Assembly (NCBI RefSeq): GCF_011065895.1
Contig: NZ_JAALCR010000007.1
Coordinates: 186,001 to 250,000, forward strand
Length of the DNA stretch: 64,000 bases
DNA from: Paludisphaera rhizosphaerae
GTDB lineage: Bacteria; Planctomycetota; Planctomycetia; Isosphaerales; Isosphaeraceae
Direction: 5' to 3'
Part shown: piece after piece, positions 7,165 to 62,374 of the stretch
Layout of the letters: each line of letters begins with the position of its first letter
Position numbering within the stretch: the stretch's first letter is position 1
Position numbers and translations under genes: made by a program
The notes under the pieces: model-generated
Told to the model about the DNA's origin: nothing
Database searches by the model: none
The model's input: only the letters and a program-made list of their open reading frames with translations

Positions 7165-7910
7165 GGCTTCACGGCGATGCAAAAGACTGAGAGTCCGAAC
7201 GGCAGCCGTCCCCCCCGCCGAATCCAGCGGTTCTCCAGGGAAAGCGGCAGCTTCAGGAGCCCGTTGACGGGCCCAGGCAGCGGGGCCACGTCGGAGGCCG
7301 GCTTCGCGTGCGAGGCCGAGCCCCGCTTGGCCAACCTCACCAGCGCGGCGATCGGGAAGAGCAAGGTGTTCCGGTACGTGAGCGTCCGGATCCGCAGGCC
7401 GGCGTCGGTCAACAGCCCCCGGAGCGACTCTCGGGTGAACCGGCGACGAACGTGGACCGCCTCGTCGTGGCTGCTGCGGAGCTTCGGATAGGCCGGCAGG
7501 TTGAGAACCAGCCAGCCCCCGGGCTTGAGCACCCTCGCCAGCTCGCGGAGGGCCTCGCCGTCGCCCGGCGGTTCGATGCAGCAAACGACGTCGGTCGAAA
7601 GCACCACGTCGAAGGACTGGTCGGGGAACGGGACGCGGCTGATCGAGGCCCGCGCCACGCCGTCGAGCCCTCGGCGGCGGAGGAACTCGAAGGCCGCCGG
7701 CGCCAGCTCCACGCCCAGGGCCTCCGTCCCCATCTTCCGGAGGGCGTCCAGGTGTTTCCCCGTGCCGCAGCCGGCGTCGAGAACGGCGACGGCTCCCCCC
7801 TGCTCCTTCGCCCGGGCCGCGACGAACGGCAGGACGAGGTCGCGCAGGCCCCAGTACCACCAGTGCGCGTCCTCGTTGCGGAACATCACGTCGTACTCAG
7901 CGGTCTCCAT
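7161..7910 (-). CDS. Class I SAM-dependent methyltransferase
   Basis: The protein has 249 residues. Motif I is LDAGCGTG (about 44-51), the acidic end of strand 2 is GVELAP, motif II is [15 protein letters not shown], and a post-motif region reads [18 protein letters not shown]. This is the Methyltransf_11 arrangement, fitting small-molecule, sugar or lipid O/N/C-methylation. It overlaps the aminotransferase gene by 14 bases and the membrane glycosyltransferase gene by 4. By context it probably modifies the sugar or lipid-linked glycan made by this operon; this is inference. Confidence 0.88.
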
Positions 7911-9030
7911 CGCCGGCCTCCTCTCGCACGGCGGCCGCGACGAACCGGGCTTCCGCGTCAGTCAACTCCGGGTAAAGCGGGAGCGAGACGACCTCGCGCG
8001 CCGCCCGCTCCGCGACGGGGAACCCGCCGGGCTCGCGGCCGAGGTCGCGGTAGGCCTCCTGCAGGTGGATCGGCAGCGGGTAGTGAACCGCCGTGGCCAC
8101 CCCGCGCGCCAGCAGCCGCTCGCGGAAGCGCTCTCGATCAGGACGCTGGAGCACGTAGAGGTGATAGCAGTGGCGGGCGTTCGCCGCCTCGTGCGGCGTC
8201 GTCAGGCCGGCCGCCGCCAGCTCCTCGTCGTAGAACCGCGCCAGCGACCGCCGGGCGGCGACCCAGCCGTCGAGGTACGGCAGCTTGGCCCGGAGGATCG
8301 CCGCCTGGATCTCGTCCAGCCGCGAGTTGACGCCGCGGATCCGGTTGCGATACTTCGACTCCTCGCCGTAGTTCCGCAGGCTGGCGACCCGCGCGGCGAT
8401 CTCCGGGTCGGCCGTCACGACCGCGCCGGCGTCGCCGCAGGCGCCGAGGTTCTTGGTCGGGTAGAAGCTGAAGCAGCCAGCGTCGCCGAGGGTCCCCACG
8501 GGCTTCCCCTCGTACAGAGCCCCGTGCCCCTGCGCGGCGTCCTCGACGACCTTCAGCCCGTGCTCACGGGCGAGGCGGAGGATCGGCCCCATTGGCGCGG
8601 GATGGCCGTACAGGTGCACCGGCACGACGGCCTTCGCCCGGCCGCCGACGCCCGTCTCAAGCTCCCTGCGGAGCGCCTGCGGGTCCAGGCAGAGCGTGAC
8701 CGGATCGACGTCGACGAGCCGAGGGACCGCCCCGGCGGCGACGATCGCGCAGACCGTGGGCGCCGCCGTGAAGGCCGCCGTGAGCACCACGTCGCCCGGC
8801 TCCACGCCGCAGGCCCGAAGCGCCAGGGTCAGGGCGTCGGTTCCGGAGTTCACGCCCACCGCGTGCGCCGCTCCGCAGGAGGCCGCGAACTCGCGCTCGA
8901 ACGCGGCGCATTCCTCGCCCAGCACATACCATCCCCGCGCCAGCACCCGGCTCGCGGCGGCGTCGACGTCCGCGCGGACCGCCCGGTACTGCCGCGCGAG
9001 GTCGAGGAATTCCACCCGACCAAAGCTCAC
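7897..9030 (-). CDS. DegT/DnrJ/EryC1-family PLP-dependent sugar aminotransferase
   Basis: The protein has 377 residues. It shows the family N-terminus ([16 protein letters not shown]), GVNSGTDAL for phosphate binding, [11 protein letters not shown] with the PLP-ring aspartate, and the Schiff-base lysine K193 in FYPTKNLGA. It converts a keto-sugar nucleotide to an amino sugar (FdtB/QdtB/WecE-type chemistry) using an amino-acid donor. A GTG start at 9030 overlaps the epimerase stop (GTGA). The neighbour upstream is a nucleotide-sugar epimerase/dehydratase, the usual source of the keto-sugar, which supports a role in making an amino sugar for a surface glycan. Confidence 0.92.
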
Positions 9031-10028
9031 CAGTAATGCTCCCGATGCTTGCGGTAGAAGTCGACCGTGCGCCGGACCCCCTCCTCCAGCCCGACCCGAG
9101 GCGTCCAGCCGACGATTCGGCGGATCTTCCGGACGTCCGAGCAGAAATCGCCCGGCTCCTGCGCGGCCCGCTCCGGCGAGAACGGGGCGAACTCCCAACT
9201 GCTCCCCGGCACGGCGTTCGTGATCGTCTCGGCCAGCTCGCGGAACGAGTACGCCCGGTTGTTCCCCACGTTGAGGACCTCGCCGTACGCCGCCTCGGTC
9301 ACGGCGCATCGGAGCATCGCGTCCACGGCGTCGCTGACGTACACGAAGTCGCGGAGGTACGAGCCGTCGCCGTAAACCCGGATCACCTCGCCGTCGAGGG
9401 CCTGCCGGACGAACCAGTTGGCCACCCCGAACCGGTTGTGCCGCATCTGCGCCCGCTCGCCGTAGATGTTCGTCAGCCGCAACGTCACCGACCGCACGCC
9501 CTGGATGTCGTGGTAGATCTGAAAAAGCTGCTGCGCCGTCAGGCTCGACAGCTCATAGATCCCCTTGGGCCGGACCGGCTGCTCCTCGTTGACCGGCAGC
9601 ATCACGGCCGATCCGTACTCTCCCCGCGTCCCGCTGTAAACCAGCCGCACGCCCGGGTTGTGGCGGCGGCAGGCCTCCAGCAGGTTGGCCGTTCCCTTGA
9701 TGTTGATGTCGATGTCGATGAACGGATTGGTCTGACTCAGGACGTGGTCGTTCTGCCCGGCGAGGTGAAAAATGAAATCTTGTCCTCGGATGAGGAATTT
9801 CAGGCTCGACTCGCCGCGGATGTCGCTGAAGTTGACAGTGACCTGATCTTTGACATCCCGGATGTTGAATAGATTGCCGCCGTGATCGTCGAGCATCGCG
9901 TCCAGAATCGTTACGCGGGCTCCGAGATCGACGAGACGGATCGCGAGGTTGCTGCCGAGAAATCCCAGTCCTCCCGTGACGAGGACGCTTCGGTCTCGGA
10001 ATTGATCGAGCCCCTGATCCTGATGCAT
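9027..10028 (-). CDS. NAD-dependent nucleotide-sugar epimerase/dehydratase (extended SDR)
   Basis: The protein has 333 residues. The nucleotide-binding motif is TGGLGFLG (about 18-25), followed by [23 protein letters not shown], and [13 protein letters not shown], all landmarks of extended SDR sugar epimerases/4,6-dehydratases. The expected catalytic YxxxK reads YELSS: the lysine is replaced by serine, checked at the DNA level (TAT GAG CTG TCG AGC). Activity may therefore be altered. The start ATG 10028 has GGAGGCGGAG just upstream. Its first 118 bases overlap the end of the preceding glycosyltransferase gene in another frame. Confidence 0.9.
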
Positions 10029-10957
10029 GGCTGCTCCGCCTCCTGAAGAACCTCGCGGACGACGAACTGGGGCGTCTGGTTCCCCGATAGGAACAGCCGC
10101 CCGATGTACTCGCCGACGACGCCGAGCATCATCAATTGCACGCCGGAGAACGTCAGCAGCGTGACCACGATCGACGCCCATCCCACGGGCGTTCCGGGCC
10201 GCAGAATCCACTCAATCGTCGTCGCCACGCCCAGCGCCACGCCCAACAGGCTGGCCACAAAGCCGGCGAACGTGCTCACCCGCAAGGGAAGCACGGAGAA
10301 GTTGACGAACATGTTGAGCCAAAGCGCTAACAGCTTGCGCAGCGTATAGTTGGATCGCCCCACCGTGCGCGGGTCGTGCCGCACCTGGAGGACGCCGATC
10401 CGCCGCGTGCAGCGCAGGATCAGGCCGTCGATGTACGGATACGGCCCGGTGTATCGCAGCACCTCGTTGACCGTGAACCGGTTCATGCACTTGAAGCTGG
10501 AGAGGTAAAGCCCTGGCGGCTTGTCCAGCAGAACCGTGGCCACCCGATCGTTGAACCGGCTCCCCAGGTTGCGAAACCAGTGGTGGTGCTTGCGTTCGTA
10601 GCGGGTGTAGACCACGTCGTAGTCGTGCCTGGCGGCGTGCGCGACGAGCCGGCGAACCTCCTCGGGAGGGTTCTGGAAGTCGTCGTCCATCACGACGACA
10701 TGCGATCCCGTGGTGTGCCGAAGACCCGCCATCACCGCGTTGTGCTCGCCGAAGTTCTTCGCCAGCTCAACGTAAACGACGTGCTCCGGATAACGCTCCT
10801 GAAGCGTCCGGCAGACCACGCCGCTGTGGTCTGGGCTGCCGTCGTTGACCAGCACGATCTGAAGTCCGTCGCGGTCGAGGACCTCCACCAGCCGAGTCAC
10901 CAGCGGACCGATCGTCTCGGCTCCGTTGTAAACTGGGATAACGATGCTGCAAGACAT
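9911..10957 (-). CDS. GT2 glycosyltransferase, polyprenyl-phosphate type (ArnC/DPM1-like)
   Basis: The protein has 348 residues. The N-terminal GT-A domain has SIVIPVYNG, LVNDGSPD and the metal-binding VVMDDDFQNPP (DDD at 91-93). Two C-terminal membrane helices follow at about 230-310. This is the architecture of enzymes that load a sugar onto undecaprenyl (or dolichyl) phosphate. The start ATG 10957 is preceded by GAAAGGACG; upstream in-frame codons do not look coding. The normal family C-terminus would be near QFVVREVL, but the frame continues about 40 polar residues into the epimerase gene. It is the first gene of the operon. Confidence 0.92.
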   Translation of the reverse strand: MSCSIVIPVYNGAETIGPLVTRLVEVLDRDGLQIVLVNDGSPDHSGVVCRTLQERYPEHVVYVELAKNFGEHNAVMAGLRHTTGSHVVVMDDDFQNPPEEVRRLVAHAARHDYDVVYTRYERKHHHWFRNLGSRFNDRVATVLLDKPPGLYLSSFKCMNRFTVNEVLRYTGPYPYIDGLILRCTRRIGVLQVRHDPRTVGRSNYTLRKLLALWLNMFVNFSVLPLRVSTFAGFVASLLGVALGVATTIEWILRPGTPVGWASIVVTLLTFSGVQLMMLGVVGEYIGRLFLSGNQTPQFVVREVLQEAEQPCIRIRGSINSETEASSSREDWDFSAATSRSVSSISEPA

Positions 10958-12222
10958 TGCCGTCACGTCCTTTCCATCAAATCGTCGCTCGTCGCTATTC
11001 TGCCCACCGGATAGCGCTCCCTCGATCAACGGTCCGCCGTCGGACCTTCGAGGACGCAGCGGTGACGCCGCCTTCGCTGAACAGCCGGCCCGTCTCCAGG
11101 CCGCAGCTTCTTGATGTTGGGAGCTGACAGAGGATGGGAAGCGGCGACGAGGTCGTCGTCACGACCCGCCTGAAGCGTCTGAGCGGTCGAGTACGACCGC
11201 CTCGAAGCGCGAGATCGCGCTCCGGCCCCGCCGAGGTCGGCGAGCAGACGCTGCAGATCCGTCAACAACGAGGGCGACAGAGCTCGATCGTGAGCGAAGT
11301 GAACATGACAGGCTGGCGGGCTGCGGGAGAGCCTATTCGCACAGCGTCCGGGGAGGACGCCGACGAATCGAGCAGGCGGACGCAATCGGCGAGGCCGAAC
11401 ATCAGACAGTCGAGCGGTCCCTTCGTCGGTGTGGCCTTGAAGGCGATGAAAAACGCCCGGCAACGGTCCGTGCGACCGCGACGCCCCGGCAGGTGAGAAG
11501 CCTCACCCGCCTTCGACGCCTTGATCCGACAAACCGCTGCTCCTCGCGACGCGCAGGCCGCGGGCCGCAGAACCGACGCGCCCGGATCCTGCTTCGTCGA
11601 CTGGGGCCCAGCCGCAACCGGCCGGAGCATCAAGCCCGGCACGATCGCGTGCGCCACAAACGACTGGGCGATCACGAGCCACACCACCAAACAGGCTTTA
11701 CGCTTGTGATTGCGGATCAAAACGAAAACCCTGGCCGCGGAGGGAGAGGCCGACGCCTTCAAAGCTTGGCGTGTAAGCACAACCAGCCCGAGGTGAAAAC
11801 CGCCATGCCCCTATTAGTGACTTACACGCCGCGCCGAGCAAGAAGAAAAGGGGCTTTCGGACTAGATTTCCGCATCTTAATATCCTAAGCACTACGGAGT
11901 TACGGCGACGCTAGCGAGTCATGCAACCGCGCATCGAAGCTGGCGAACCGGCCATTCTCGGCGAAAACCTGGGGCCCCCGCCCAGCCCTGAAGCACGAAA
12001 AAACGTCTCGGCCGCGCTTGTCCGGTTTAATCAGGAGGCGCGGCCGTATTCATGCGCAAAGGCGCTAAAACCCTGGAATCAGGATGAAGCCCCGGCTATC
12101 CTGAACCCGAAGCACGCTCAATGATCTGAAATTCATTCCCGCCTCTCGCTTGCTTGCTCGTGCATTCGTTGGTCAACGCCTACCGTCCGCCGCGGCCGAG
12201 TCCGCCGAACAGGGGTCTGCGC
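10958..12222. other. Long intergenic region between divergent operons
   Basis: About 1.27 kb lies between the minus-strand glycan operon and the plus-strand DUF1501 gene. It must hold both promoters. I see no convincing coding region. An inverted repeat (GGCGTGTAAG at 11768-11777 with CTTACACGCC at 11821-11830) and a locally AT-richer stretch at about 11865-11895 are the only notable features. A 172-codon minus-strand frame at 11262-11780 has a GTG start and one hydrophobic stretch but no family resemblance or ribosome-binding site, and I leave it uncalled. Confidence 0.5.
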
Positions 12223-49470: not shown

Positions 49471-52248
49471 GTGAAACCGGCCCGCCCAACGTGCCTCGCC
49501 GTCCTCATCGCTCTCGCCGCTCCCTGTCTCGCCGAGGAGCCGACCCCCGCGCGCTTCGCGGACCCGCCGCGATCGACGCGGATCCTCAAGATCATCCACA
49601 ACTGGCCCGACCGCGACGCCGATCAGGACGCCCTGATCGCCCGCCTCAAGGGCCAGGGGTTCGGCGGGGTCGTCTCAAATGTGGCGTTCGACGGCTACCT
49701 CGAAAGCGAGCCGAAGTGGGCCGCCTTCCGCCGAGGCGTCGCGCAAGCCCGCGAGGCCGGTTTCACGCAGTGGCTTTACGACGAGAAGGGATACCCCTCG
49801 GCGAACGCCGGCGGCCTCGTCCTGCGCGGTCGGCCGGAGTGGGAAGCGAGCGGCCTCTTGATCGCCGACGCCCGTAGCGAGGGTCCGGCCGTCGCGCTGG
49901 CCTCGCCGCCGGGCGACCTCTACCTGGCCGCCGCCTTCCCCGAGCGCGACGGCCTCATCGACCTGGCCGGTCGGGTCGACCTGTCGGACGTCGTTCGCGA
50001 AGGCCGGCTCAAATGGACGCCACCGGCGAGTCCGAAAGCCTGGCGGGTCTTGCTGGTCACGCGGAGCCGGCTGTTCCAGGGGACCCACGCCGACAACAAC
50101 GTCTTCAGCCACATCCCCTACCCCAACCTGCTCATGGCCGAGCCCATCGAGCGGTTCGTCGAGTTGACGCACCAGGCCTACGCCGCGCGCCTGGGCCCCG
50201 AGCTGCCGAGGACCTTCCAGGCGACGTTCACCGATGAGCCGTCGCTGATGAGCTACTTCCTCAAGCCGATGCCGTACCGGGTCCTCCCCTGGTCGCCGAC
50301 GTTCGCCGATGAGTTCCAGAAGCGTCGAGGGTACGACCCAACGCCCATCGTCCCCGCCCTGGTCCTCGACGCCGGCCCCGAAGGCGCCCGCCGTCGCCGC
50401 GACTTCTGGCGGACGGTCGCCGAGCTGGTCTCGGAGAACTACTTCGGCCGCCTCCAGGCGTGGGGACGCGCCCGGGGCGTTCCCTCGGGCGGGCACCTGC
50501 TCCTGGAGGAGCCGCTCGCCTCGCACGTGCCGAACTACGGGGACATGCTCGCCTGCCTGCGCCGGATGGACGCCCCGGGGATCGACTGCCTCACCAGCCT
50601 CCCCGGCCAGGCGCCGTGGTTCGTCGCCCGGCTCGCCGCCAGCGCGGCCGAGTTGGAGGGGCGCGAGTTGGTGATGTCGGAGACGTCCGACTTCGTCCAG
50701 CGCCACCGGGCCGAGGGGGACAAGCGTCCCCGTCGCATCGTGACCGAGGCCGAGATCCGCGGCACGATCAACCGCCTGGCGCTCGGCGGCGTGAACTGCA
50801 TCACCAGCTACTACAGCTTCGAGGGCCTGGACGACGACGCCCTGCGGCGGCTGAACGCGCACGTCGGCCGGTTGGGGATGATGATCCGGGGCGGGTCGCA
50901 GGTCGCCGACGTCGCCGTCGTGTACCCGATCGAGTCGCTCTGGGGCCGGTTCGAGCCGTCGCGGCACACGACCAACGACGCCCCCGCCGCCGAGCGGATC
51001 GAGGCCCTCTACCGCCGCACGCTCGACTCGCTCTTCGAGGCTCGCCGCGACCCGACCATCGTCGACGCCCGCGCACTGGCCGAGGCGAAGGTCGAGGGCG
51101 ATTCCCTCGTCCACGGCCGCTTGCGGTGGCGGGTGGTCGTTCTGCCGGGCGTCGACGCTCTGCCGGCCGCGGCCTGGGCGAACCTCGACCGCTTCGCGGC
51201 GGCCGGCGGCGTGGTCGTAACGATCGGCGATCGCCCCCGGTTCGACTCCAGCGCTCAGCCCGACGACGCGGTCGTGGCCGCGATCGCCGCGCGGCTGTTC
51301 GGCACCGAGGCGGCGGCCGACAGCGGCCCACGGACGACCTCGAACGCCTCGGGGGGAGGCGGCGTCTTCCTCCCCGACGGATCGGCCGGCTTACTGCCGG
51401 CGGCGATCGACGCCGTGCTCGCCCCCGACGTCGCCGCCGCGCCAAGGTCGCCGTTGCGGCAGACCCATCGACGGATCGACGCCCATGACGTCTACCTGAT
51501 CGCCAACGACTCCGACCGGCCCGTCGCCGACTCCATCAGCCTGCCGCTGCCCCCCGGCGCGGCCGTCGAGTCGTGGGATCCCGCGACGGGCGAGGTCCGA
51601 TCAATCACAGTCGCCCCCCAGAACGCCGTCCCCGTCGCGCTGGAGCCGTATGGAGCCGTTCTGGTCCGCGTCGCGAGCGTCGCTCCGCGCGCCCGGCGAC
51701 CGCTCGTCGCGGGGGGACTGCCGACGGTTCGGGTTTCACCCCTGAGCCTTCCCGAGCCGACCGTCGGCCGCGGCGAGTTCGTGAGGGAGACCGTTGAAAA
51801 GGCCGACGGCTCGTGGACCTTCCGGGGCCTGGTGACGAGGTCGAACGTGGACGTCCACCTCTTCGCCGCATTCCGTTTGCCAGGGCCGCTGGACCTCTCC
51901 GCGACCGAGGGCCTGGCCGTCGACGCGGCCGTCCCGCCCGATCAGCGGACGTCGACGCGGATGCTGGTGATCGTCCGGACCGACGACGGCGGCGAGTACC
52001 TGGCCTCGACCTCGCGGTCGCTGGCCGCTCCCGGCGCCGACCGGACGTTCGTCCCCTGGTCGAGCTTCGAACACGCCCCCTGGTCCAAGGCCGGCTCCTC
52101 CGATCTGAATCCAGCGCGCGTGGCCGGCCTGAGCATCGGCTGGGGAGGCTACTTCGGGACCGAGGGCGAAACCGTCTCCTTCCGGCTCAACGGCGTGGGA
52201 TCCGTGACGATCGGCTCGGGCTCGGGGCCGCCCTCCACGATCCGGTAG
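49471..52248 (+). CDS. Secreted glycoside hydrolase-like protein (GH106/rhamnosidase-like) with CIA30-type C-terminal domain
   Basis: The protein has 925 residues. The signal peptide is about 1-21. A TIM-barrel region follows with NWPDRDADQDALIARLKGQG, EAGFTQWLYDEKGYPS, TFTDEPSLMSYF and VMSETSDFVQRH; carboxylates in the last two could be catalytic, as in GH106-like rhamnosidases. A Rossmann-like segment (about 480-620) and beta domains follow. The C-terminal ~150 residues resemble the CIA30/galactose-binding fold. The final 100 bases overlap the convergent gene, so the last ~30 residues may be non-native. A related tail (52071-52201) occurs at 57590-57720. Confidence 0.8.
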   Translation: MKPARPTCLAVLIALAAPCLAEEPTPARFADPPRSTRILKIIHNWPDRDADQDALIARLKGQGFGGVVSNVAFDGYLESEPKWAAFRRGVAQAREAGFTQWLYDEKGYPSANAGGLVLRGRPEWEASGLLIADARSEGPAVALASPPGDLYLAAAFPERDGLIDLAGRVDLSDVVREGRLKWTPPASPKAWRVLLVTRSRLFQGTHADNNVFSHIPYPNLLMAEPIERFVELTHQAYAARLGPELPRTFQATFTDEPSLMSYFLKPMPYRVLPWSPTFADEFQKRRGYDPTPIVPALVLDAGPEGARRRRDFWRTVAELVSENYFGRLQAWGRARGVPSGGHLLLEEPLASHVPNYGDMLACLRRMDAPGIDCLTSLPGQAPWFVARLAASAAELEGRELVMSETSDFVQRHRAEGDKRPRRIVTEAEIRGTINRLALGGVNCITSYYSFEGLDDDALRRLNAHVGRLGMMIRGGSQVADVAVVYPIESLWGRFEPSRHTTNDAPAAERIEALYRRTLDSLFEARRDPTIVDARALAEAKVEGDSLVHGRLRWRVVVLPGVDALPAAAWANLDRFAAAGGVVVTIGDRPRFDSSAQPDDAVVAAIAARLFGTEAAADSGPRTTSNASGGGGVFLPDGSAGLLPAAIDAVLAPDVAAAPRSPLRQTHRRIDAHDVYLIANDSDRPVADSISLPLPPGAAVESWDPATGEVRSITVAPQNAVPVALEPYGAVLVRVASVAPRARRPLVAGGLPTVRVSPLSLPEPTVGRGEFVRETVEKADGSWTFRGLVTRSNVDVHLFAAFRLPGPLDLSATEGLAVDAAVPPDQRTSTRMLVIVRTDDGGEYLASTSRSLAAPGADRTFVPWSSFEHAPWSKAGSSDLNPARVAGLSIGWGGYFGTEGETVSFRLNGVGSVTIGSGSGPPSTIR

Positions 52249-55088
52249 GTCCGGCCGGCTTCGAGATTGGCGAACGTCTCGCGACGGCCGGACGGCCAGT
52301 GGACCTCCACGCGGTCGACCCGAGCGGCCGCGCCCAGACCGAAGTGGACGCGCGGCGATGAGGCCGATTGGTAGCTGCCGCCGCCGAACCGAAAGCCCGA
52401 CTGCCGCCGGCCGCCGGCCTCAACCACGACCCGAGCGCCGACGGCGTCGCGGTTGGATCGGGTCCCGACGAGTTGGAAGGCGATCCAGCGGCCGGGCGAG
52501 GTCGCCTGGTGCAGGCAGGCCAGCGGGGCGCCGTCGGCCGTGACCAGGACCTCGGGACGGCCGTCGTCGTCGAGGTCGCCCACAGCCAGGCCGCGGCCGA
52601 CGCGGGGGGTCGTCCAGGCGGGCCCGGCGGCGACGGAGACGTCGCGGAGCCGGCCCCGGTCGTCGCCCAGGAAGAGCTGAGCGGGCATGGCGTAGGCGCT
52701 CGCCGGCGTGTAGTCGTTGACGTGGCCGTTGGCCTGGGCGAGGTCGAGCCGGCCGTCGCCGTCGGCGTCGAGCGCCGCCAGCCCGAAGCCCAGGACGTAC
52801 CGGGTGGCCGCGGCCAGTCCGGAGGCCGCCGAGCGATCGCTGAACAGGCCGCCGCCGTGGTTGTGGTAGAGAGTGGTGGACTCGCCGTAGAAGTTGGTCA
52901 CGGCCAGGTCGACCAGGCCGTCGCCGTCGAGGTCGCCGCAGGCCACGCCCATGCCGGCCATGAAGCCGCCGCCGGCCGACGCCGCCAGCCCCGCGGCGGT
53001 CGCCTCCTCGGAGAACTTCATCCCGCCCAGGTTGCGGAAGAACAGGTTGGAGGTCGTGTCGTTGGCGACGAAGAGGTCCACCCGGCCGTCGCCGTCGAGG
53101 TCGGTCGCGACGACGCCCAGGCCGCGGCCGTCGGGGTCGACGATCCCCGCCTCGGCCGTCACGTCCACGAACCGGCCGTTGTCGTTGCGATAGAGCCGGT
53201 CGCCGATGGACGGCGAGAGCCGGGGGTCGCAATACGAGGAACCCTTGCCGGACGGGTCCGGGCAAGGGGGCGGGTTCGCCTCGTCCCAGCGAACGTAGTG
53301 GCAGACGTAGAGGTCCAGGTCGCCGTCGTCGTCGAGGTCGGCAAAAGCGGCCGAGGTGGGCCAGTCGCGGTCGCCCCCCAGGCCGGCGGCTTCGGTGGCG
53401 TCGGTGAACGTCCCATCCCCCCGGTTGCGGTAAAGGGCGTAGCGCCTCCAGCGGGTGACGAAGAGGTCGGGACGGCCGTCGCCGTCGTAGTCGCCCACCG
53501 CGACGCCGTGGCCGTAGCCGCCGGGGAGCTTCGCCAGGCCGGCGGCTTCGGTGGCGTCCTCAAACATCCCGCCGCCCCGGTTGCGGAAGAGTCGGTCGCC
53601 GAACGGGGCGGCGGCCGGAGGCGGGAACGCGCCCCCCTGCACGGCGTAGACGTCCAGCCGGCCGTCGCCGTCGTAATCGAGCACGCCGACGCCCCCGCTC
53701 ATCGTCTCGGGAAGTTGCCGCGCGGCGCTCCGGCCGTTGTCGAAGGTGAACCGCAGGCCGCGAGTCTCGGCGTCGTCGACGTACCTCGGGACCTCACCGG
53801 CCGTCGTTGAAGGACTCCCCGCCGCCATTCGCTCCAGATCGGGGCCGAGCCAGACGGCGACGGTCAGTGAAGGGTCGAGACGTTCTTCGGCCGACTCCGA
53901 TTCGAGGGCCCGGACGCGGGCTTCGGCCTCGCCGCGAGCAGTCGAGTCGGAGGCGCGGAAGGCGGCCAGCCGCCACCAGAGGCGGGCCTCGTCGAGTACG
54001 CCGGCGACCTCGGAGGCGCGGGCGACCTCGGAGGCGCGGGCGGCCGGGTCGGGAGCGGAGAGCAGCTCGCGCCGGCGTTCACGGGCGGCCTCGACCTCGG
54101 CCTTGCGGCGGTGCAGCTCGGCGGCGCGGTCGTGGCGGCCGGCGTCGGCCTCCAGTCCGGCCAGGCGGTCGAGCGCCGACAGGGCGGCGGGCTCGCGGGC
54201 CAACCAGGCCTCCATCGCGGCGCGGGCGGCCTCGCGGTCGCCCCCGCGCGAGGCCAGCCAGGCCCGGAGCGACAGCCGTTCGGAGGTCGTCAGCATCGCC
54301 GCGGGAACGATCCCGACGACCTTCGCGGCGACGTCGGGACGGTCGGCGGCCTGGGCCCAGAGCAACCGCGACCGCGCCGCAAGCGGGTCGCCCGGCGCGG
54401 CGGCCTCGCAGGTCTTGAGACGTCGGTCGGCCTCGTCCAGCGACCCGGCTCGGAGGGCCAGGTTGGCGCGGGCCAACTCCAGGCGGTCGTCGTCGGGGGC
54501 CTTCGCGGCCAGGTCGGCCAGCGCCCGGCCGACGCCGTCAACGGGAAAGGCGACGCCGTCCATCGCCCAGAGCGAAACCAGCTGAGCGGTCGGGTTGTTG
54601 GTCCGATCGGCCCAGCGAAGCAGCAAGCGACGCCGCTCCGGAACGCGGCCGGAGAGTTCGTAGAGCGTCCCGAGGGCGTCCTCAGCGCGCTCAACGATCG
54701 GCCCGCCCCCCTTCGCGGCCCGGTCGAGATCGTCCTCGGCCGGTCGGAGGCGGCCCATTTCGATTTCCAGACGCCCCAGGGCCAGCGCGGCGTCGCGCGC
54801 CAGGGGATCGTCGACCGGGACGCGCCGGAATGAAGAGACGGCTGCGTCGGCCTCGCCGGCCTCGTGCTGGGCGGTCCCCAGCCAAAAGGCGGCGTCGCCG
54901 CGGTCGGGCCGCCGCGCGGCGATGGGCGCAAGGAGGTCGCGAGCCGCGGACGCCCGACGGGACGCCAGATCCTGGCGCGCCTGGAGAACGGCCGAGTCAA
55001 CGCTCGCATCGTCGAACAGTCTGAGCGCGAACCAGCCGGACGCACCAAGAACGACGACCGCAGCCAGGATCCCGATCCAACGTCTCAT
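52149..55088 (-). CDS. TPR / FG-GAP (VCBS) protein with ASPIC/UnbV domain (CRTAC1-like)
   Basis: The protein has 979 residues. An N-terminal membrane helix (IGILAAVVVLGASGWFAL) is followed by TPR-like repeats (about 30-330), then at least six FG-GAP/VCBS repeats with calcium-binding loops such as DYDGDGRLD, DLDGDGRVD and DADGDGRLD (about 470-850), and a C-terminal ASPIC/UnbV domain (RVDRVEVHWPSGRRETFANL). It is likely an extracytoplasmic beta-propeller; the function is unknown. A tandem duplication encodes RASEVARASEVA. The 3' end overlaps the convergent hydrolase gene by 100 bases. Confidence 0.9.
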   Translation of the reverse strand: MRRWIGILAAVVVLGASGWFALRLFDDASVDSAVLQARQDLASRRASAARDLLAPIAARRPDRGDAAFWLGTAQHEAGEADAAVSSFRRVPVDDPLARDAALALGRLEIEMGRLRPAEDDLDRAAKGGGPIVERAEDALGTLYELSGRVPERRRLLLRWADRTNNPTAQLVSLWAMDGVAFPVDGVGRALADLAAKAPDDDRLELARANLALRAGSLDEADRRLKTCEAAAPGDPLAARSRLLWAQAADRPDVAAKVVGIVPAAMLTTSERLSLRAWLASRGGDREAARAAMEAWLAREPAALSALDRLAGLEADAGRHDRAAELHRRKAEVEAARERRRELLSAPDPAARASEVARASEVAGVLDEARLWWRLAAFRASDSTARGEAEARVRALESESAEERLDPSLTVAVWLGPDLERMAAGSPSTTAGEVPRYVDDAETRGLRFTFDNGRSAARQLPETMSGGVGVLDYDGDGRLDVYAVQGGAFPPPAAAPFGDRLFRNRGGGMFEDATEAAGLAKLPGGYGHGVAVGDYDGDGRPDLFVTRWRRYALYRNRGDGTFTDATEAAGLGGDRDWPTSAAFADLDDDGDLDLYVCHYVRWDEANPPPCPDPSGKGSSYCDPRLSPSIGDRLYRNDNGRFVDVTAEAGIVDPDGRGLGVVATDLDGDGRVDLFVANDTTSNLFFRNLGGMKFSEEATAAGLAASAGGGFMAGMGVACGDLDGDGLVDLAVTNFYGESTTLYHNHGGGLFSDRSAASGLAAATRYVLGFGLAALDADGDGRLDLAQANGHVNDYTPASAYAMPAQLFLGDDRGRLRDVSVAAGPAWTTPRVGRGLAVGDLDDDGRPEVLVTADGAPLACLHQATSPGRWIAFQLVGTRSNRDAVGARVVVEAGGRRQSGFRFGGGSYQSASSPRVHFGLGAAARVDRVEVHWPSGRRETFANLEAGRTYRIVEGGPEPEPIVTDPTPLSRKETVSPSVPK

Positions 55089-55114
55089 GACGGCCCAGTT
55101 CGTCTGGTCAACGA

Positions 55115-55147
55115 AGACCCGGCCGGGCGTGGGGCTCGGCCGGGTCT
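55115..55147 (-). terminator. Hairpin between DUF1559 and CRTAC1-like genes
   Basis: An 11-bp perfect stem (AGACCCGGCCG at 55115-55125 with its complement at 55137-55147) lies about 77 bases past the stop of the minus-strand DUF1559 gene. It has no T-run (TCGTTGACC follows), so it is a possible but unproven terminator. Confidence 0.4.
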
Positions 55148-55223
55148 CGGGGTTTGCACAAGCCGATCGGATCAGATCAGGGGAGGGTCAGGTCGATTCG
55201 TTCCCGATCCGAAGGTCGCCGGC

Positions 55224-56393
55224 TCAGTACGCGTCGGAGCTAATGACTTCGCCGCCGGCCCTGGTGCCCAAAGCCATCCAGGTCCGCATGTTGATCGAGT
55301 CCTTGACGAACTTGACCGAGCCGTCGGAGAACAGGACGTTCACGCCGCCGGAGTGGTAGCTCTGGGCGTTGGAGTAGGCGGAGTCGTCCGGGCCGCAGCC
55401 GCCGCAGTCGGGCCGGCAGGCGTTCCACGCGTGCTGCTTGGAGTTGGGCGGGACGATGGTGTTGAACAGGGTCATCGTCATGGCGCCCCAGCCCCAGCGG
55501 TTGCCGGTGGCGTTGCTGATGTTGGTGTTGCCGTTGGTCATGCCGGCCTTATAAGCGGTCGTGCAGGCCTGGAGCGAGGTCTGGATCAACTGGTCGGACA
55601 GCGACGAGGCGTCCTGCATGAGATTGGTCGCGCCGGTGACGCCGGTGACCGCGTTGTTGGGGCGGCCGACCGAGACGGCGGCAGGGTCGCCGACGAGCGA
55701 CTCGGCGAAGGCGATGGTGTTGGAGGAGCCGTCGGTGATGTCGCGGATGCCGTTGACGGCGTAGTACATGAAGACGCCGCTGGAGTAGGGGTTGCAGTTG
55801 GGAGGGCTGCCGAAGAACGGGTCGGGCCGACAGCTGGAGTAGCCGGGCCACTGCTCCCACCGGGACGACGTGGTGCCGATGCTGCCGCGATAGCTGTTGG
55901 TGTTGGGCTGGCCGGTGCCCGCCGACACCGTGCCCTTGCCGTTGTTGCCGTCGGAGGGGCACATGAAGACCGAAAGGAGCGCCGTCCAGCCGGTCTTGTT
56001 GATCTGCTGGCCGGCGTCATAGCCGCCGCAGAAGGAGAAATTAATGGCGCTGTAGAGCGTTCCCTGCTCCAGGTAGGGGAGCATCATGGCATGGGCGCTC
56101 CACTCGGTCCAGCCGGCATATCCCCCGGAGTAGCCGATGAGATGGGCGGAGACCGTCTGCCCCGGCGGGAACGACCCGATCGACGAGTGGTAGTTGTGCA
56201 TGCCCAACCCGATCTGCTTCAGGTTGTTCACGCACTGGGAACGACGTGCCGCCTCGCGGGCCGCCTGAACGGCCGGCAAGAGCAGGGCTATCAACACCGC
56301 GATGATGGCGATCACGACCAGGAGTTCAATCAGTGTGAACCCCTGGCGCTTACGCACGGAACCTTGACACGAGTCCATTGGGCACGACTCCAT
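55224..56393 (-). CDS. DUF1559 protein with pilin-like N-methylation signal (second)
   Basis: The protein has 389 residues. The leader ends in G and is followed by [19 protein letters not shown] and [17 protein letters not shown], the pseudopilin-type signal. The C-terminal block [19 protein letters not shown] is the H-X9-DG motif. The middle is Asn/Ser/Gly-rich and divergent from the copies at 26048 and 57809. Start may be 56393 or 56378. It lies 111 bases after a small lipoprotein gene on the same strand. Confidence 0.92.
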
Positions 56394-56504
56394 GGGCCTT
56401 GTGAAAGGATGGGAGGAAAGAGCGAAACCGATCGGTACGTCGCAACGCGCGACCCCGCAGGCCCTGCAAGGATGGGCCGGCGGGGTCGGCGTCGGTGGGA
56501 TTGA

Positions 56505-56771
56505 TCAGTGGGACTTCTCGGCGGTGCCCCCGGTGTGCGCCGCCTTGGCGGCGGCCTTGCCGGGATTGCGGCCGACGGGCACGCCGGATTTGCCGTACGC
56601 GGCCTGACGAGCCGCCTGTTCGTCGGCCTGCCGTTTCTGGATTTCCGCGTCGGACTCGACCGGGGCCGTCCCCGAGCTGTTGTCGCTGCAACCGGTGAAT
56701 AAGGCCGATGCGGCGACAAGCAACGCGGCCAGGAGACCCCGATACTCACGGCGGACTTGCGGATTGTGCAT
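56505..56771 (-). CDS. Small lipoprotein paired with DUF1559
   Basis: The protein has 88 residues. The lipoprotein signal (LLAALLVAASALFTGC) has a good lipobox ending at C25. The mature part is short, charged and Ala/Lys-rich (AEIQKRQADEQAARQAAYGK). The GAGSIDVP motif of the 25756/27180 pair is not present. The start ATG 56771 directly precedes the signal. It has a good promoter about 160 bases upstream and leads into the DUF1559 gene. Confidence 0.78.
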   Translation of the reverse strand: MHNPQVRREYRGLLAALLVAASALFTGCSDNSSGTAPVESDAEIQKRQADEQAARQAAYGKSGVPVGRNPGKAAAKAAHTGGTAEKSH

Positions 56772-57184
56772 CGAAATGAATCCGATGTTAAGCGACGCTC
56801 CGACGGCGCAGCACCGCGCCTTCGGTCGGTAGAAGGGACCGCGAAACAATCAGAACGTCGGCACGACTATGAGATTCGGACGTCAAAGCGATTGGGCCCC
56901 CCGCAAGTATCCACAGGGGGTTTGGCTGCCCGTCATTATCCTTCAACATTCATACCTGTCAATGTACCACTGGCGCCTTCTCGACTTTGTTGTCAACCCT
57001 ATTTGATTAGTTTTTGCTCACCGACCATACATAAACGAGCTTCGCGAAAGAGCTCAAGCCCACAGGCTGGTCGCGCAGACGAGGCATGGATACGGCCGAC
57101 CTCGACGCGACCCCTGGCCCGGCCTCGTCTTGCGACGACCGACGGGCGGTCGGCCTCCCGAATCGCACGGAAGGGGACGCCAGG
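56772..57184. other. Divergent intergenic region with duplication edge
   Basis: It holds the promoter of the lipoprotein-DUF1559 unit (minus) and an AT-rich stretch near 56985-57040. From 57167 on it is identical to the sequence upstream of the ExbB-like gene at 60215. Confidence 0.5.
56935..56962 (-). promoter_or_regulatory. Promoter of the lipoprotein/DUF1559 pair
   Basis: On the minus strand TTGACA (56962-56957) and GATAAT (56940-56935) are spaced by 16 bases, close to consensus. The leader to the lipoprotein ATG at 56771 would be about 155 bases. A TTGACAGG element at 59658-59651 lies at a similar place upstream of the third pair. Confidence 0.6.
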
Positions 57185-57589
57185 ATGGCGAAGGGCGCGA
57201 CCGATTCACCGAAGGCGGCGTACGTCGCCGCGTCGGCCATGCTGGGGCTGGCGTTCCTGTTCCCGATCGGCCTGATGATCTTCGACCCCACGCTCATGTT
57301 CGAGCGTGGGTGGGAGCAGTACGTCGGGACCGGCATCTACTTCTGGGCCGTGCTGACCCTGGCCTCTGAACTGCGCCGACTCTGGCGCGACGAACGGGCC
57401 TTCGAGGAAGCCCCAGCGTTGCTGAAATACCTCGGTGCGATGCTCCAAAGCAACGCCGCCCCGGCCGACGCCCGCGCCACGGCGATTGCTGCCGACGGTC
57501 GGACGCTCCCGGCGCGGGTGCGACAGTTGGCCGGCTTCGCCCGGGAGGCCCGCTCGGCTCCGGCCGAGCAACTGATGGAGGTCAACCGC
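57167..57589 (+). repeat. 423-bp exact duplicate of 60197-60619
   Basis: Compared base by base, 57167-57589 equals 60197-60619 with a constant offset of 3030 and no difference that I can find. It includes 18 bases before the ATG (with the ribosome-binding site) and the first 135 codons of the ExbB-like gene. Identity stops abruptly at GTCAACCGC on the right and at ACGGAAGGGG on the left. Confidence 0.95.
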
Positions 57590-57760
57590 CACGCCCCCTG
57601 GTCCAAGGCCGGTGCCTCCGATCTGAATCCGGCGCGCGTGGCCGGCCTGAGCATCGGCTGGGGAGGCTACTTCGGGACCGAAGGCGAAACCGTCTCCTTC
57701 CGGCTCAAGGGCGTCGGAACCGTGACGGTTGAAGTCCATGAAAAAGCCCCGGAGGAGTGA
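57185..57760 (+). pseudogene. Chimeric ORF: ExbB-like N-terminus fused to CIA30-type tail
   Basis: The open frame has 191 codons. Residues 1-135 are identical to the start of the MotA/TolQ/ExbB-like protein at 60215, including its first two membrane helices. At codon 136 the sequence switches in frame to HAPWSKAGASDLNPARVAG and onward, closely related to the last part of the hydrolase at 49471 (52071-52201) but with several differences, so the tail comes from a paralogue. The frame ends inside the stem of the terminator belonging to the convergent DUF1559 gene. The proton-channel core (GTVEGIS region) is missing, so I treat it as a non-functional fusion, although it keeps a start, ribosome-binding site and open frame. 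Confidence 0.8.
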
Positions 57761-57774
57761 ATCTCCTCCGGGGC
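57741..57774 (-). terminator. Rho-independent terminator of the DUF1559 gene at 57809
   Basis: A perfect 12-bp GC-rich stem (57746-57757 with 57763-57774) and a 5-base loop are followed on the minus strand by TTTTT (57745-57741). It lies 35 bases past the DUF1559 stop. Confidence 0.9.
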
Positions 57775-57808
57775 CTGCGATGGCTCGCTGTTGCGGGAGA
57801 CGAGACGG

Positions 57809-58906
57809 TCAGAACGCGTCGGAGCTGACGATCTCGCCGCCGTTGCGGGTGCCGAGAGACCAAATGACGTTCTGGGCGACCGAGGACTTCAGGAAGCGCA
57901 CCGAGCCGTCGCCGAAGGCGGCGTTGGCCCCGCCGGAGTGATAGCTGCTCATGCCGACCGAGCCCCAGGCGCCGTCATTGTCACCGCCCCAGTTGACGAT
58001 GATGCAATTCGGGTAGTTGGGGTTCGGGGCCACGAGCATGTTCCCCAGGGTCCGGCCGAGGAGCGCCTGGCACCACATCTGGCCGATGAAGCTGCGATGG
58101 GCCGTCGGGTTCGTCCGGGCGAACGCACCGCAGGCCTGGAGCCAGGGGACGAACGCCGCGGCGCCGTAAGGCATGTTGCAGCCGGGCTGGTTCCAGTCGG
58201 CGACGTTCTGGGGCGTCGAGGTGTAGACGACCATGTCCTGCGGGTTGTTGAACACGTTGTTGTTGTTGTCCCCGGAGCGCCACTCCGAGAAGACGATAGT
58301 GTTCGCGGAGCCGTCGACGATGTCGCGGATGCCGTAGGCCGTGCCGCCCACTTCGAAGACGCCGTTGGGGCGAGAGTTGCCGTTGTAGTAGAACTGGTTC
58401 ATGCTCGCGCCGAGCGAGGCGAAGTAGTTCGTGTAAGGCGACGGCCGGCCCGACAGCCAGTTCCCCGGATAGGGGGGCGACGACGGGCAGGTGAAGGCGT
58501 TGATCAGCGTGGTCGTGGCCGAGGTGTTCTGGTATTGACCGGTCGTGTCTTCGCTGGCGTTGGGCAGGTTGAAATTGATGGCCGCGAAGATCGCCGACTG
58601 CTCCAGGTAAGGCAGCAGCATCGAGTGGGCGCTCCAGTTGCCCCACCCCGTTCGCACGCTGCCATTGACGATCACCGAGCCGCCGCCCATGGGGAAGCTG
58701 CCGATGGCCGAATGATAGTTGTGCATGGCCAGGCCGATCTGCTTCAGATTGTTCACGCACTGGGCGCGACGGGCGGCCTCGCGCGCGGCCTGCACGGCGG
58801 GCAGGAGCAGCGCGATCAGGACGGCGATGATCGCAATCACCACCAAAAGCTCGATCAGTGTGAATCCGCGTGATCCACGAGAGTATGAGATTGATGAGCT
58901 GCGCAC
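57809..58906 (-). CDS. DUF1559 protein with pilin-like N-methylation signal (third)
   Basis: The protein has 365 residues. After a short leader ([13 protein letters not shown]) comes [19 protein letters not shown] and [17 protein letters not shown]. The C-terminal block [20 protein letters not shown] is the H-X9-DG motif. The middle is Asn-rich ([14 protein letters not shown]). The GTG start at 58906 has GGGAG upstream; upstream codons do not resemble a leader. A strong terminator follows, and a small lipoprotein gene lies upstream on the same strand. Confidence 0.92.
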
Positions 58907-59167
58907 GACATTTCTCCCTCGAATTGGATAAAGCCTCGCTCCTGGTCTCTCGATCCCGGACGACGGATGGTTTCCGTTGGAAACCACCAGACGGCCGTCC
59001 TGGAACGACGATCCCTTCTTCTCCCGTGCTGGCCGGGCGACCCTCCGGCAACGACCTGCAGGTCGTACGCAACCCGAGTTGGGCGCGCGCAACGGGATAA
59101 CGACAATCAGCCCCAGGCGTGACGACGAGTCGTCCTCGAAGCGTCAGTCGGGATTTCAGCCAAGGAA

Positions 59168-59362
59168 TTATTGAGGCAAGACGGAAGGGCTGACGCCTGG
59201 CGGCGTCTTGAGCTTGGATCGATCCTGCGCCGGCTGCGGGAGGGCTCCTTCGACCTTGGCCAGCGGGATCTCCTGCTGGCCGCCGCAGCCTAATGCGCCT
59301 ACCAAAAGAAACAACGGCCCCACAACGGCCGTGACCATCAACGTCGGCTTGCAAAGCTTCAT
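59168..59362 (-). CDS. Small lipoprotein paired with DUF1559 (third pair)
   Basis: The protein has 64 residues. The signal (LMVTAVVGPLFLLVGALGC) ends in a good lipobox at about C26. The mature part is short and Pro/Gln-rich (GGQQEIPLAKVEGALPQP). The function is unknown. The DUF1559 gene begins 261 bases downstream, a wider gap than in the other two pairs. Confidence 0.75.
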   Translation of the reverse strand: MKLCKPTLMVTAVVGPLFLLVGALGCGGQQEIPLAKVEGALPQPAQDRSKLKTPPGVSPSVLPQ

Positions 59363-60214
59363 GTGGATTGGACTCCTGACTCGCCGTCGACCTGGCGTCC
59401 CCAGGATCTTGGACCGACGAGGGTGGTCATCGAGAGCATTTCTCCGAGGTCGCCAGGCCGGGGCGTGGCAGCAACCAAGGAGAATGCAGCGCGCACCACC
59501 ACCCCATTTCGTCCTTGGGGGCAGAGTTCCAGGTTACAGAGGAGAGACTCTCTGGAAGGAATGATCGTACCCGAGCCCCCGACCCAGGGACCGACGACGG
59601 CACCCGTGCTAATCCAGTTGAACTCTTGAAACCTACGATTCGACGGGCATCCTGTCAATGATGCACACCGCTTGCTACGTTAGAATTTAGGTTGCAACCG
59701 AGGCGTCGTCACCCAGGTGCTCGGCAGCCTTCCTGACCGCCGCAAATCAGCCGGGTCGAAACGATCGAGGAAAGGGGATCGTTCCTTCCTCTGGCTCCGA
59801 AGTTCGTAGTCGATCGGAGGCCTCAGGGCGACCGCTCCTTTCGCAACCGAGCGACGACTCTTGCCGGACCAGGTTCGATCGCCCCAATCGGCATCACTGC
59901 AATGCCTTGGGCCATACCGGCCGAAACTCACGACGCCTCCCGCGGCTCCGGTTCGCGCCGCGACTCCGAGAGCCTGCCACAAGTCTTAACCTTTTGGGCT
60001 TTCGGGCGTGATTGGTCGGCGTCGGTTCCTGGAATGAACTGAAGCCGGAGGGCCAGTTGCGCCGATAGGGCGAAGGATAGGAATCGCGATGGATCGCGGG
60101 GGATGCCGATGGAGTCGGCCGACTGAACGCGGATACCGGCCCGCGCTTCGCTCTTCAGCGACCCGCGCGGAGCCGGCCTCTGATCACGGTCACAGTACGG
60201 AAGGGGACGCCAGG
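59363..60214. other. Long divergent intergenic region
   Basis: About 850 bases lie between the third lipoprotein (minus) and the ExbB-like gene (plus). On the minus strand TTGACA at 59658-59653 with a weak TAGGTT 17 bases on could drive the lipoprotein. The last 18 bases belong to the duplicated block. I see no gene. Confidence 0.45.
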
Positions 60215-61561
60215 ATGGCGAAGGGCGCGACCGATTCACCGAAGGCGGCGTACGTCGCCGCGTCGGCCATGCTGGGGCTGGCGTTCCTGTTCCCGATCGG
60301 CCTGATGATCTTCGACCCCACGCTCATGTTCGAGCGTGGGTGGGAGCAGTACGTCGGGACCGGCATCTACTTCTGGGCCGTGCTGACCCTGGCCTCTGAA
60401 CTGCGCCGACTCTGGCGCGACGAACGGGCCTTCGAGGAAGCCCCAGCGTTGCTGAAATACCTCGGTGCGATGCTCCAAAGCAACGCCGCCCCGGCCGACG
60501 CCCGCGCCACGGCGATTGCTGCCGACGGTCGGACGCTCCCGGCGCGGGTGCGACAGTTGGCCGGCTTCGCCCGGGAGGCCCGCTCGGCTCCGGCCGAGCA
60601 ACTGATGGAGGTCAACCGCGAGGCCTCCGGGCTCGACCAGGAGCACACGGCCGGCCGGTTCACGCTCACCCGCTACATCCTTTACCTCCTGCCGGTCATC
60701 GGCTTCATCGGTACGGTCGAGGGCATCTCCAAGGCCCTCATGAGGATCAGCCAGGTGCTGCCGCTGGTGAAGGACCTTGACGCCTTCCTGGGGAACCTGA
60801 CGGGCGTGACCTCGGCCTTGCAGATCGCCTTCGACAGCACGTTGCTGGCCCTCTTCCTGAGCGCCGCGCTGATGCTGGTGCAGACCCTCGTCTTCCGCCT
60901 GGCCGAGCGCCACCTGGCGCGGGTGGATCGCTGGGTGGTCGAGCACGTGCTCCCCGGCGTGGGCGCCCGCGACGCCGCCGCCGACCGGATCGCCGATGTC
61001 ATCGCCCCGCACGTCGAACGCCTCCGCGCCGAGCTGGCGACCCTGCTGGAGCCCGCCGCTCGCGCCTTGCAGGGTGAGGCCGAGAAGATCGGCCGCAGCC
61101 TGGAAGCCCCGGTCGACCGGCTGGCGACGGCCGTCGACGGATTGCCCTCCTCGCTGGCCTCCTTCCGCCAGGGGGCCGACGCCATCGCCCGCGTCGGCGG
61201 CGAGTTCGAGGTGCTGGAAGCCTTCGGCGAATCCTCGCGGCGGTCGGCCGCCTCGCTGGCCCGGATCGAGGACTCGCTGGCCCAGGCTCCAGAGCCCGAC
61301 CCGCAGTTGCTGGAGATCAAGCGGGCGCTCGACCGCAACACGGCGGCCGTCGAGGGGATGGCCGCGGCCTGGGCCTCCGCCTACGAGAAGTCGAGCCGGA
61401 CGACCCAGGAACAGCTCGCCAAGACGATGAACAACCTCAAGGACGCGCTCGACCTGATCAACGTCAGCATCGAGCAGGCCAACTCGCTCTATCGCAACAT
61501 CGTCAAGCGGATGTTCGACGACCGCGGCCGCTCCGGCGGCGGCGACTCCCGCGCGGCCTGA
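60215..61561 (+). CDS. MotA/TolQ/ExbB-family membrane protein with long cytoplasmic tail
   Basis: The protein has 448 residues. Membrane helices lie at about 13-33, 48-62, 148-170 and 205-232. The third carries the family signature GFIGTVEGISKAL and the fourth DSTLLALFLSAALMLV, matching the proton-conducting core of MotA/TolQ/ExbB/ZorA proteins. About 210 C-terminal residues form a helical, coiled-coil-like tail (for example IEDSLAQAPEPDPQLLEIKRAL, TMNNLKDALDLINVSIEQAN), longer than in TolQ/ExbB. It would form the pentameric half of a stator-like complex. The next gene starts 30 bases downstream and is the likely partner. Confidence 0.88.
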   Translation: MAKGATDSPKAAYVAASAMLGLAFLFPIGLMIFDPTLMFERGWEQYVGTGIYFWAVLTLASELRRLWRDERAFEEAPALLKYLGAMLQSNAAPADARATAIAADGRTLPARVRQLAGFAREARSAPAEQLMEVNREASGLDQEHTAGRFTLTRYILYLLPVIGFIGTVEGISKALMRISQVLPLVKDLDAFLGNLTGVTSALQIAFDSTLLALFLSAALMLVQTLVFRLAERHLARVDRWVVEHVLPGVGARDAAADRIADVIAPHVERLRAELATLLEPAARALQGEAEKIGRSLEAPVDRLATAVDGLPSSLASFRQGADAIARVGGEFEVLEAFGESSRRSAASLARIEDSLAQAPEPDPQLLEIKRALDRNTAAVEGMAAAWASAYEKSSRTTQEQLAKTMNNLKDALDLINVSIEQANSLYRNIVKRMFDDRGRSGGGDSRAA

Positions 61562-61591
61562 CCCCGGCGACTCCAGGAGGTTCGAGAAGCC

Positions 61592-62374
61592 ATGCGACGG
61601 AATCGGCGAGGGGGCGGCGGTGGCGGCCTGGAGTTCGGCGGCTCGGGCGAGGATTCGTTCGTCGCGGTCGTCGTGACCAAGCTCACCGGGGCGCTCCTCT
61701 TCATCCTGTTGTTGACGATGGTCATCATGGCCTTGCTGCCCAAGGCGATGGACGTGGCCCCCGGTTCTCCCCGAGAGCAGGCCGAGGCCCGGCCGCTCAA
61801 GATCGCCACGCCGCCGGAGCTTCCCGAGGCCATCGCCGGCCGGCCCTACCACGTCGCGCTGGCGGCCGAAGGGGGCCGCGGCCCCTTGCGGTGGTCGCTC
61901 GACGGCGAACTCCCCGACGGCCTGACCTTCGACGCCGCTTCGGGACTCCTCTCCGGCACCCCGACGAAGGGGACGCCCCAGCCTAAGGAGCTGGCCCTGC
62001 GCGTGGGCGACGGCGAGTCGTTCGCGGCCGGTCCGCTGCGGCTGACGGTCTACCAGAGCGACGTCCCGCTGAGCACGCCCTCGTGGTGGAAGCCGGGGAT
62101 TCCGCCGGTCCCCTGGCGGGCCTGGCTCGACGACGGGGTCGGCTTCCTGATCCTTTGGCTGATCCATCTGGTGGGGATGTCCACCCTGGCGAACTTCGAG
62201 CGCCAGGCCGCCGCCATGACCCTGGCGACCGAAGGAGGCGCAACCATCCCCGCCGGCGAGACCTCGCCCGACCTCGCCCCGCGCCGATTCGCCCTGTATC
62301 GTGCGGTCGTCCGCCTCAGCACGCTCTCGGCCATGATCGGCCTGGCGGCCTGGCTCTGGTCGGCACGCCCCTGA
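61592..62374 (+). CDS. Membrane protein with Ig-like domain, putative stator partner
   Basis: The protein has 260 residues. A Gly/Arg-rich start is followed by DSFVAVVVTKLTGALLFILLLTM, one membrane helix at about 23-46 placed as in MotB/ExbD/ZorB partners. An Ig-like He_PIG domain follows at about 73-155 (GGRGPLRWSLDGELPDGLTF, ASGLLSGTPTKG). Two more helices lie near 182-205 and 235-255. The acidic residue usual in MotB/ExbD helices is not evident; a Lys-Leu-Thr stretch is there instead. It has no peptidoglycan-binding domain. Position suggests that it works with the ExbB-like protein; this is inference. Confidence 0.72.
   Translation: MRRNRRGGGGGGLEFGGSGEDSFVAVVVTKLTGALLFILLLTMVIMALLPKAMDVAPGSPREQAEARPLKIATPPELPEAIAGRPYHVALAAEGGRGPLRWSLDGELPDGLTFDAASGLLSGTPTKGTPQPKELALRVGDGESFAAGPLRLTVYQSDVPLSTPSWWKPGIPPVPWRAWLDDGVGFLILWLIHLVGMSTLANFERQAAAMTLATEGGATIPAGETSPDLAPRRFALYRAVVRLSTLSAMIGLAAWLWSARP

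Follow-up and report, generated by a model that had tools for sequence, protein, structure and literature searches.

The window analysed here, a stretch of 64,000 nucleotides of Paludisphaera rhizosphaerae DNA, contains on its plus strand an open reading frame of 191 codons (57185-57760) that combines the beginning of an ExbB-like gene with the end of a GH106 hydrolase gene and is in frame with both parents. The first part of this chimera belongs to a repeat, R, whose left copy (57167-57589, plus strand) joins codons 1-135 of the ExbB-like gene to a ribosome-binding-like stretch ahead of them, and whose right copy (60197-60619, plus strand) consists of the same letters and forms the beginning of the intact ExbB-like gene (60215-61561, plus strand, 448 amino acids). 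In a letter-by-letter comparison the two copies showed 0 differences over 423 bp, and identity stopped at both borders (C/T on the left and C/G on the right). At the right border of the left copy the frame continues into a tail of 138 bp (57590-57727, plus strand), of which 131 bases (94.9%) are shared with positions 52072-52209 (plus strand) inside the hydrolase gene (49471-52248). The fusion is thus sharply bordered, with each side of the frame matching one parent located elsewhere, and by eye the sequences share no microhomology at the 57589/57590 joint. These results bear out the first-pass annotation with respect to the exact repeat, the 191-codon open frame and the identity of the chimera and its two parents; for the tail it had named the right parent with a few differences, placed at 52071-52201, while the matching segment is slightly longer and carries 7 differences.

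An in-frame ATG at 57086 would yield 224 codons; the start that the chimera has in common with the relatives is not this upstream ATG, however, but 57185. Of the two membrane helices proposed earlier, one is clear from hydropathy analysis (windows within residues 10-40, peak 2.2), while the second hydrophobic stretch, at residues of approximately 46-62, stays under the cut-off of 1.4. The chimera had no match in Pfam (to E 0.1) or NCBIfam (to E 0.01). Its break lies just before the core conserved in the ExbB-like family: the MotA/TolQ/ExbB channel domain comprises residues 125-236 of the intact protein, and the chimera, which keeps 135 residues, is left without the channel core. The earlier ExbB label is valid for the intact gene, since its product reaches Pfam MotA_ExbB with 24.3 bits against a cut-off of 22.9; NCBIfam returned only WXG100, below its cut-off, and a search for sequence relatives of the family in the PDB gave nothing beyond coiled-coil or marginal matches. 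Downstream of the intact gene, whose product combines the channel domain with a long C-terminal part, lies a gene encoding a protein with a putative Ig domain (He_PIG, Pfam; 60215-62374 for both genes). Both genes were matched in all five genus relatives, and their products may form an uncharacterised membrane complex.

The tail encodes the end of the C-terminal sandwich domain of the GH106 hydrolase. In a structure comparison, the model of this domain (mean pLDDT 91.8, 181 residues, 11 strands) matched CBM11 (best E 1.1e-6, TM-score 0.63-0.67) as well as complex I assembly intermediates, one of them titled with NDUFAF1, so that the earlier CIA30-like label is valid for the C-terminal domain of the hydrolase, with Pfam giving GH106 alone for the hydrolase protein. 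Of the 181-residue model the tail covers the part from residue 124 onwards, with only the strands at 140-151 and 157-171; instead of a complete CBM11/CIA30-type beta-sandwich it retains the last two strands. Among the 7 differences between tail and hydrolase, 4 are synonymous and 3 nonsynonymous. The tail and the hydrolase are equally far from three relatives (46/46, 48/45 and 37/39 differences for tail/hydrolase), which mildly favours an origin of the tail from a functioning allele, as such equal distances would be unexpected under long drift of a dead copy, although 138 bases decide little.

The first-pass annotation had proposed a genome-wide search for the true donor of the tail. In the protein search of the own genome (all 10 candidates scored) the tail matched these two places and, in addition, one sequence at E 0.34. 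Likewise, the ExbB N-terminus was found in two places, and the protein search (23 of 23 candidates scored) detected no copy in the own assembly beyond these. A DNA search of the genome, in which 40 of 224 candidates were scored, agreed in finding no further copy of either part, and a further genomic donor of the tail was rejected on the basis of these protein and DNA searches. R has a native look, with 83.5% identity to the genus relative G002 compared to 87.0% for the remainder of the ExbB-like gene.

Three genus relatives (G002, G003 and G004) are collinear and carry the GH106 hydrolase, an ASPIC-like gene, a DUF1559 gene, a leader and the ExbB-like gene in this order. G005, whose contig ends inside the ASPIC-like gene, shows the same order from that point on, and G001 retains the ExbB-like gene and its downstream neighbour. 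The fusion is absent from relatives that keep the parents, the hydrolase tail being present in G002, G003 and G004 and a single ExbB N-terminus in each of the five genus relatives. Across the family the ExbB N-terminus was matched in 43 of 45 genomes, and two full-length copies occurred in the own genome alone (1 of 45); in G044 two rows represent adjoining parts of the N-terminus within a single contig, and the two partial matches of G020, which overlap in part (query 9-70 and 26-135), come from different contigs. A small open reading frame at 56505-56849 had a DNA match only in G002 and G004 of the five relatives. The gene at 52149-55088, which we take to be ASPIC-like from its repeats as judged by eye, gave weak TPR-type matches below cut-off in NCBIfam. 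The hydrolase and the minus-strand ASPIC-like frame overlap at their 3' ends in the window (52149-52248), whereas the matching parts are approximately 390 bases apart in G002 and 320 bases in G003, with no such gap in G004. In G002 (locus L019) the DUF1559 gene of the window (55224-56393) is matched in tandem (8623-9732 and 10667-11813), and DUF1559-type matches are numerous across genomes among the matches listed; this abundance may aid local rearrangement.

Relative to the gene order of the relatives, the window contains an extra block of 3030 bases (approximately 3.03 kb, from spacing), composed, in this order, of the hydrolase tail, a hairpin terminator, a minus-strand DUF1559 gene, a lipoprotein-like gene, approximately 670 bases, a second ExbB leader and a renewed ExbB start. 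It begins with hydrolase and ends with ExbB sequence, as in the parent locus. The terminator-like hairpin with its U-run (57741-57776, minus strand) lies downstream of the DUF1559 gene and holds the stop codon of the chimera in its loop. It folds with -30.9 kcal/mol (z -6.2) and was unlisted in a terminator consensus scan; a similar hairpin can be recognised by eye after the P. soli homologue. The DUF1559/prepilin-like gene (57809-59092, minus strand; Pfam PF07596 and N_methyl) has an 84% DNA match in G003. Its neighbour (59168-59362, minus strand) encodes a 64-amino-acid protein that appears by eye to be a lipoprotein, has no Pfam match and is patchily distributed (two of six genus genomes at E 0.001 and six of 45 family genomes at E 0.01, the own genome counted in both). 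The DUF1559/lipoprotein pair is located elsewhere in P. soli, beside a gene that looks TPM-type by eye; the genes flanking this pair (L075, approximately 7431-10609) match C4:78704-81893 of the own genome, where the DNA match ends before the pair. A copy of a surviving locus was rejected as the origin of the extra block, the lipoprotein being found in one genomic place (19 of 19 candidates scored). For 59363-60196, a search that scored as many as 40 candidates in each of the six genus genomes gave nothing below E 0.0106 besides the segment itself, and no known RNA family reached gathering scores in 52000-61600.

Both copies of R are preceded by a leader with a promoter-like element, which resembles the sigma-28 (FliA) consensus. 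The element of leader A (57054-57080, plus strand) has two mismatches, both in the -10 part, while that of leader B (60040-60066, plus strand), which precedes the intact ExbB-like gene, has a single mismatch in the -35 part; the -10 part is therefore intact in B and damaged in A. The two leaders differ at 22 of 82 aligned sites and by gaps (approximately 27%; 60 identities; z 6.5 in a shuffle test). Resemblance to the G002 leader exceeded that of all 200 shuffles for both A (z 23.2; 68 identities, 11 mismatches) and B (z 10.4; 96 identities, 34 mismatches). It was weak between B and three further relatives (shuffles reaching the score: G003 1/200, G004 2/200, G005 11/200), and weak or at chance level for A with G005 (4/200) and G001 (59/200). 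In 25 ExbB loci (26 less L062, which has too little upstream sequence), the 300 bases ahead of the ExbB-like match were scanned for the element TCAAG-N14/17-GCCGAT: 11 loci have it without a mismatch, and the number rises to 17 when one mismatch is allowed; two of the one-mismatch sites lie 254 and 298 bases upstream. The background of 2 matches in 496132 bases applies to the exact pattern. The exact elements (TCAAG-N15/16-GCCGAT) lie approximately 100-200 bases upstream (L041, L042, L044, L045, L047-L049, L052-L054 and L059) and belong to Paludisphaera, Singulisphaera, Planctomycetales or Isosphaeraceae records, distant loci being mostly without the element. A FliA-family sigma factor exceeding the curated cut-off is present in the genome, and a stricter FliA-like pattern had one match in the own genome. 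The element suggests co-expression of this MotA/ExbB-type protein with the flagellar regulon. Since leader B keeps the -10 part and leader A does not, the intact gene would be served by B, and the chimera is probably a relic.

The hybrid gene is most likely the seam of a local duplication that was then reworked. In three relatives the interval lies between the 3' end of the hydrolase and the 5' end of the ExbB-like gene; in the window both ends are found twice in tandem, with the parents on one strand and ordered as at a duplication joint. A unit that begins at the 3' end of the hydrolase and stops at codon 135 of the ExbB-like gene would have been repeated, so that the end of the first unit (the ExbB start) abutted the beginning of the second (the hydrolase tail) and created the chimera. 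The second unit would since have come to carry a different DUF1559/lipoprotein pair and a diverged leader, reading into the intact ExbB-like gene, and the 423-bp copies of R would have been homogenised by gene conversion. The anatomy of the joint is plain from these alignments, and we regard the history of a remodelled tandem duplication as probable, with the order of events deduced from matching ends that are short. A plain tandem duplication of the whole interval does not agree with the data: correspondence is confined to tail, leader and R, and the central part of the second unit does not replicate that of the first, the ASPIC-like gene being absent and a different DUF1559/lipoprotein pair present. 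Hence a remodelled duplication at most is compatible with the window, and at least one further event is needed. Moreover, the uneven divergence between the copies (0% in R, 5% in the tail and approximately 27% in the leaders) counts against even this best explanation, and so does the fact that leader A is nearer to the G002 leader (11 mismatches) than to leader B (22 mismatches). At the rate of the tail, approximately 21 differences would be expected in R, provided that tail and R separated together and evolved alike, compared to the 0 observed. Because the leaders are approximately 27% apart, the perfect repeat is more readily attributed to gene conversion or to a one-sided import. Of the origins suggested earlier for a perfect copy, gene conversion thus stands, while the diverged leaders speak against a simple recent copy and against a duplicated-contig artefact. 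The identity of R is best explained by conversion between both copies; either the duplication would predate the apparent age of R, which gene conversion then homogenised, or leader B would come from another lineage. The first-pass annotation had also regarded an in-frame switch between unrelated families as rare. This does not make the present joint remarkable: with both parents on one strand and arranged as a duplication joint requires, the frame would be kept at one in three joints of this type.

A one-sided import would account for several of these features at once. DNA of a related strain, bringing a diverged hydrolase tail, the DUF1559/lipoprotein genes and leader B, would have entered by homologous recombination where the ExbB-like gene starts and by an illegitimate join at codon 135, in which case both copies of R would be recipient sequence and hence identical. 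One event would then cover the R copies without differences, the 5% different tail and the unusual leader B, and it would be in keeping with a joint without shared bases by eye and with a tail as distant as the hydrolase from three relatives. In addition, transformation-induced tandem duplication has been shown in Streptococcus pneumoniae, where it is reported to proceed through repeats (PMC3784515). However, a single donor is awkward when the tail differs by 5% and leader B by approximately 27% from the resident copies, and among the candidates scored the five genus relatives contained no donor for the DUF1559 region or for 59363-60196, so that we judge this import unlikely. A misjoin caused by repeat handling in the draft assembly appears still less likely, even though the assembly consists of 110 contigs and a perfect 423-bp repeat exceeds the length of a typical short read. 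Each copy of R has its own ExbB-like leader and the tail carries 7 differences, so that the block is not a copy of assembled sequence; and as both block ends join R, we reason that any other layout would call for a circle of its own, additional repeats of the unit or another false join.

Could the chimera nevertheless act as a small membrane protein, for example as a modulator of the ExbB-like complex? It has kept an open frame together with a ribosome-binding-like stretch and a single membrane segment, and 4 of the 7 tail differences are synonymous. On the other hand, it lacks any Pfam or NCBIfam match, retains two strands of an 11-strand sandwich and follows a damaged -10 element. The other ExbB N-terminus matches in the family lie in frames of at least 416 codons, except for those of 340 (G020) and 137 codons (G044), and none of 34 loci retrieved with the whole chimera, a set that may omit records of the own genome, matched the N-terminus together with the tail as far as its GWGGYFG part. 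A function of this kind is very improbable, and we would give barely any credence to the bolder idea that import from a sister lineage arranged in tandem two haplotypes of the same chromosomal interval, yielding a novel membrane protein in competition with the ExbB-like subunit during assembly. To return to the remodelled duplication, a left copy without the MotA/ExbB core and with a damaged promoter-like element would be a relic, most likely non-functional, and the open frame of R would be intact because it is identical to that of a functional gene.

In summary, a fusion frame that resembles a new domain combination can be explained by the gene order of relatives, which makes the locus a worked example of an ordinary process and a warning against reading such frames as new proteins. 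It also shows, within a small space, how far apart the apparent ages of adjacent parts of a single rearrangement can be (0%, 5% and approximately 27%). With the MotA/TolQ/ExbB proton-channel family the locus shares the intact neighbour (60215-61561), which reaches the Pfam cut-off, whereas the domain is missing from the chimera. Similarly, the transformation-induced merodiploidy described in Streptococcus pneumoniae resembles the proposed history as a tandem duplication arising through recombination, but it is reported to occur through repeats and to span 107 kb or more (PMC3784515), while here the joint has no shared bases, the unit measures a few kb and there is no sign of transformation. 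Joints of bacterial tandem duplications can yield gene fusions, and although the present case differs from these in that the central part of the second unit is no copy and one part is identical while others have diverged, it agrees with them in its same-strand parents, in its combination of the start of the downstream gene with the end of the upstream gene, and in a joint that lies inside both.
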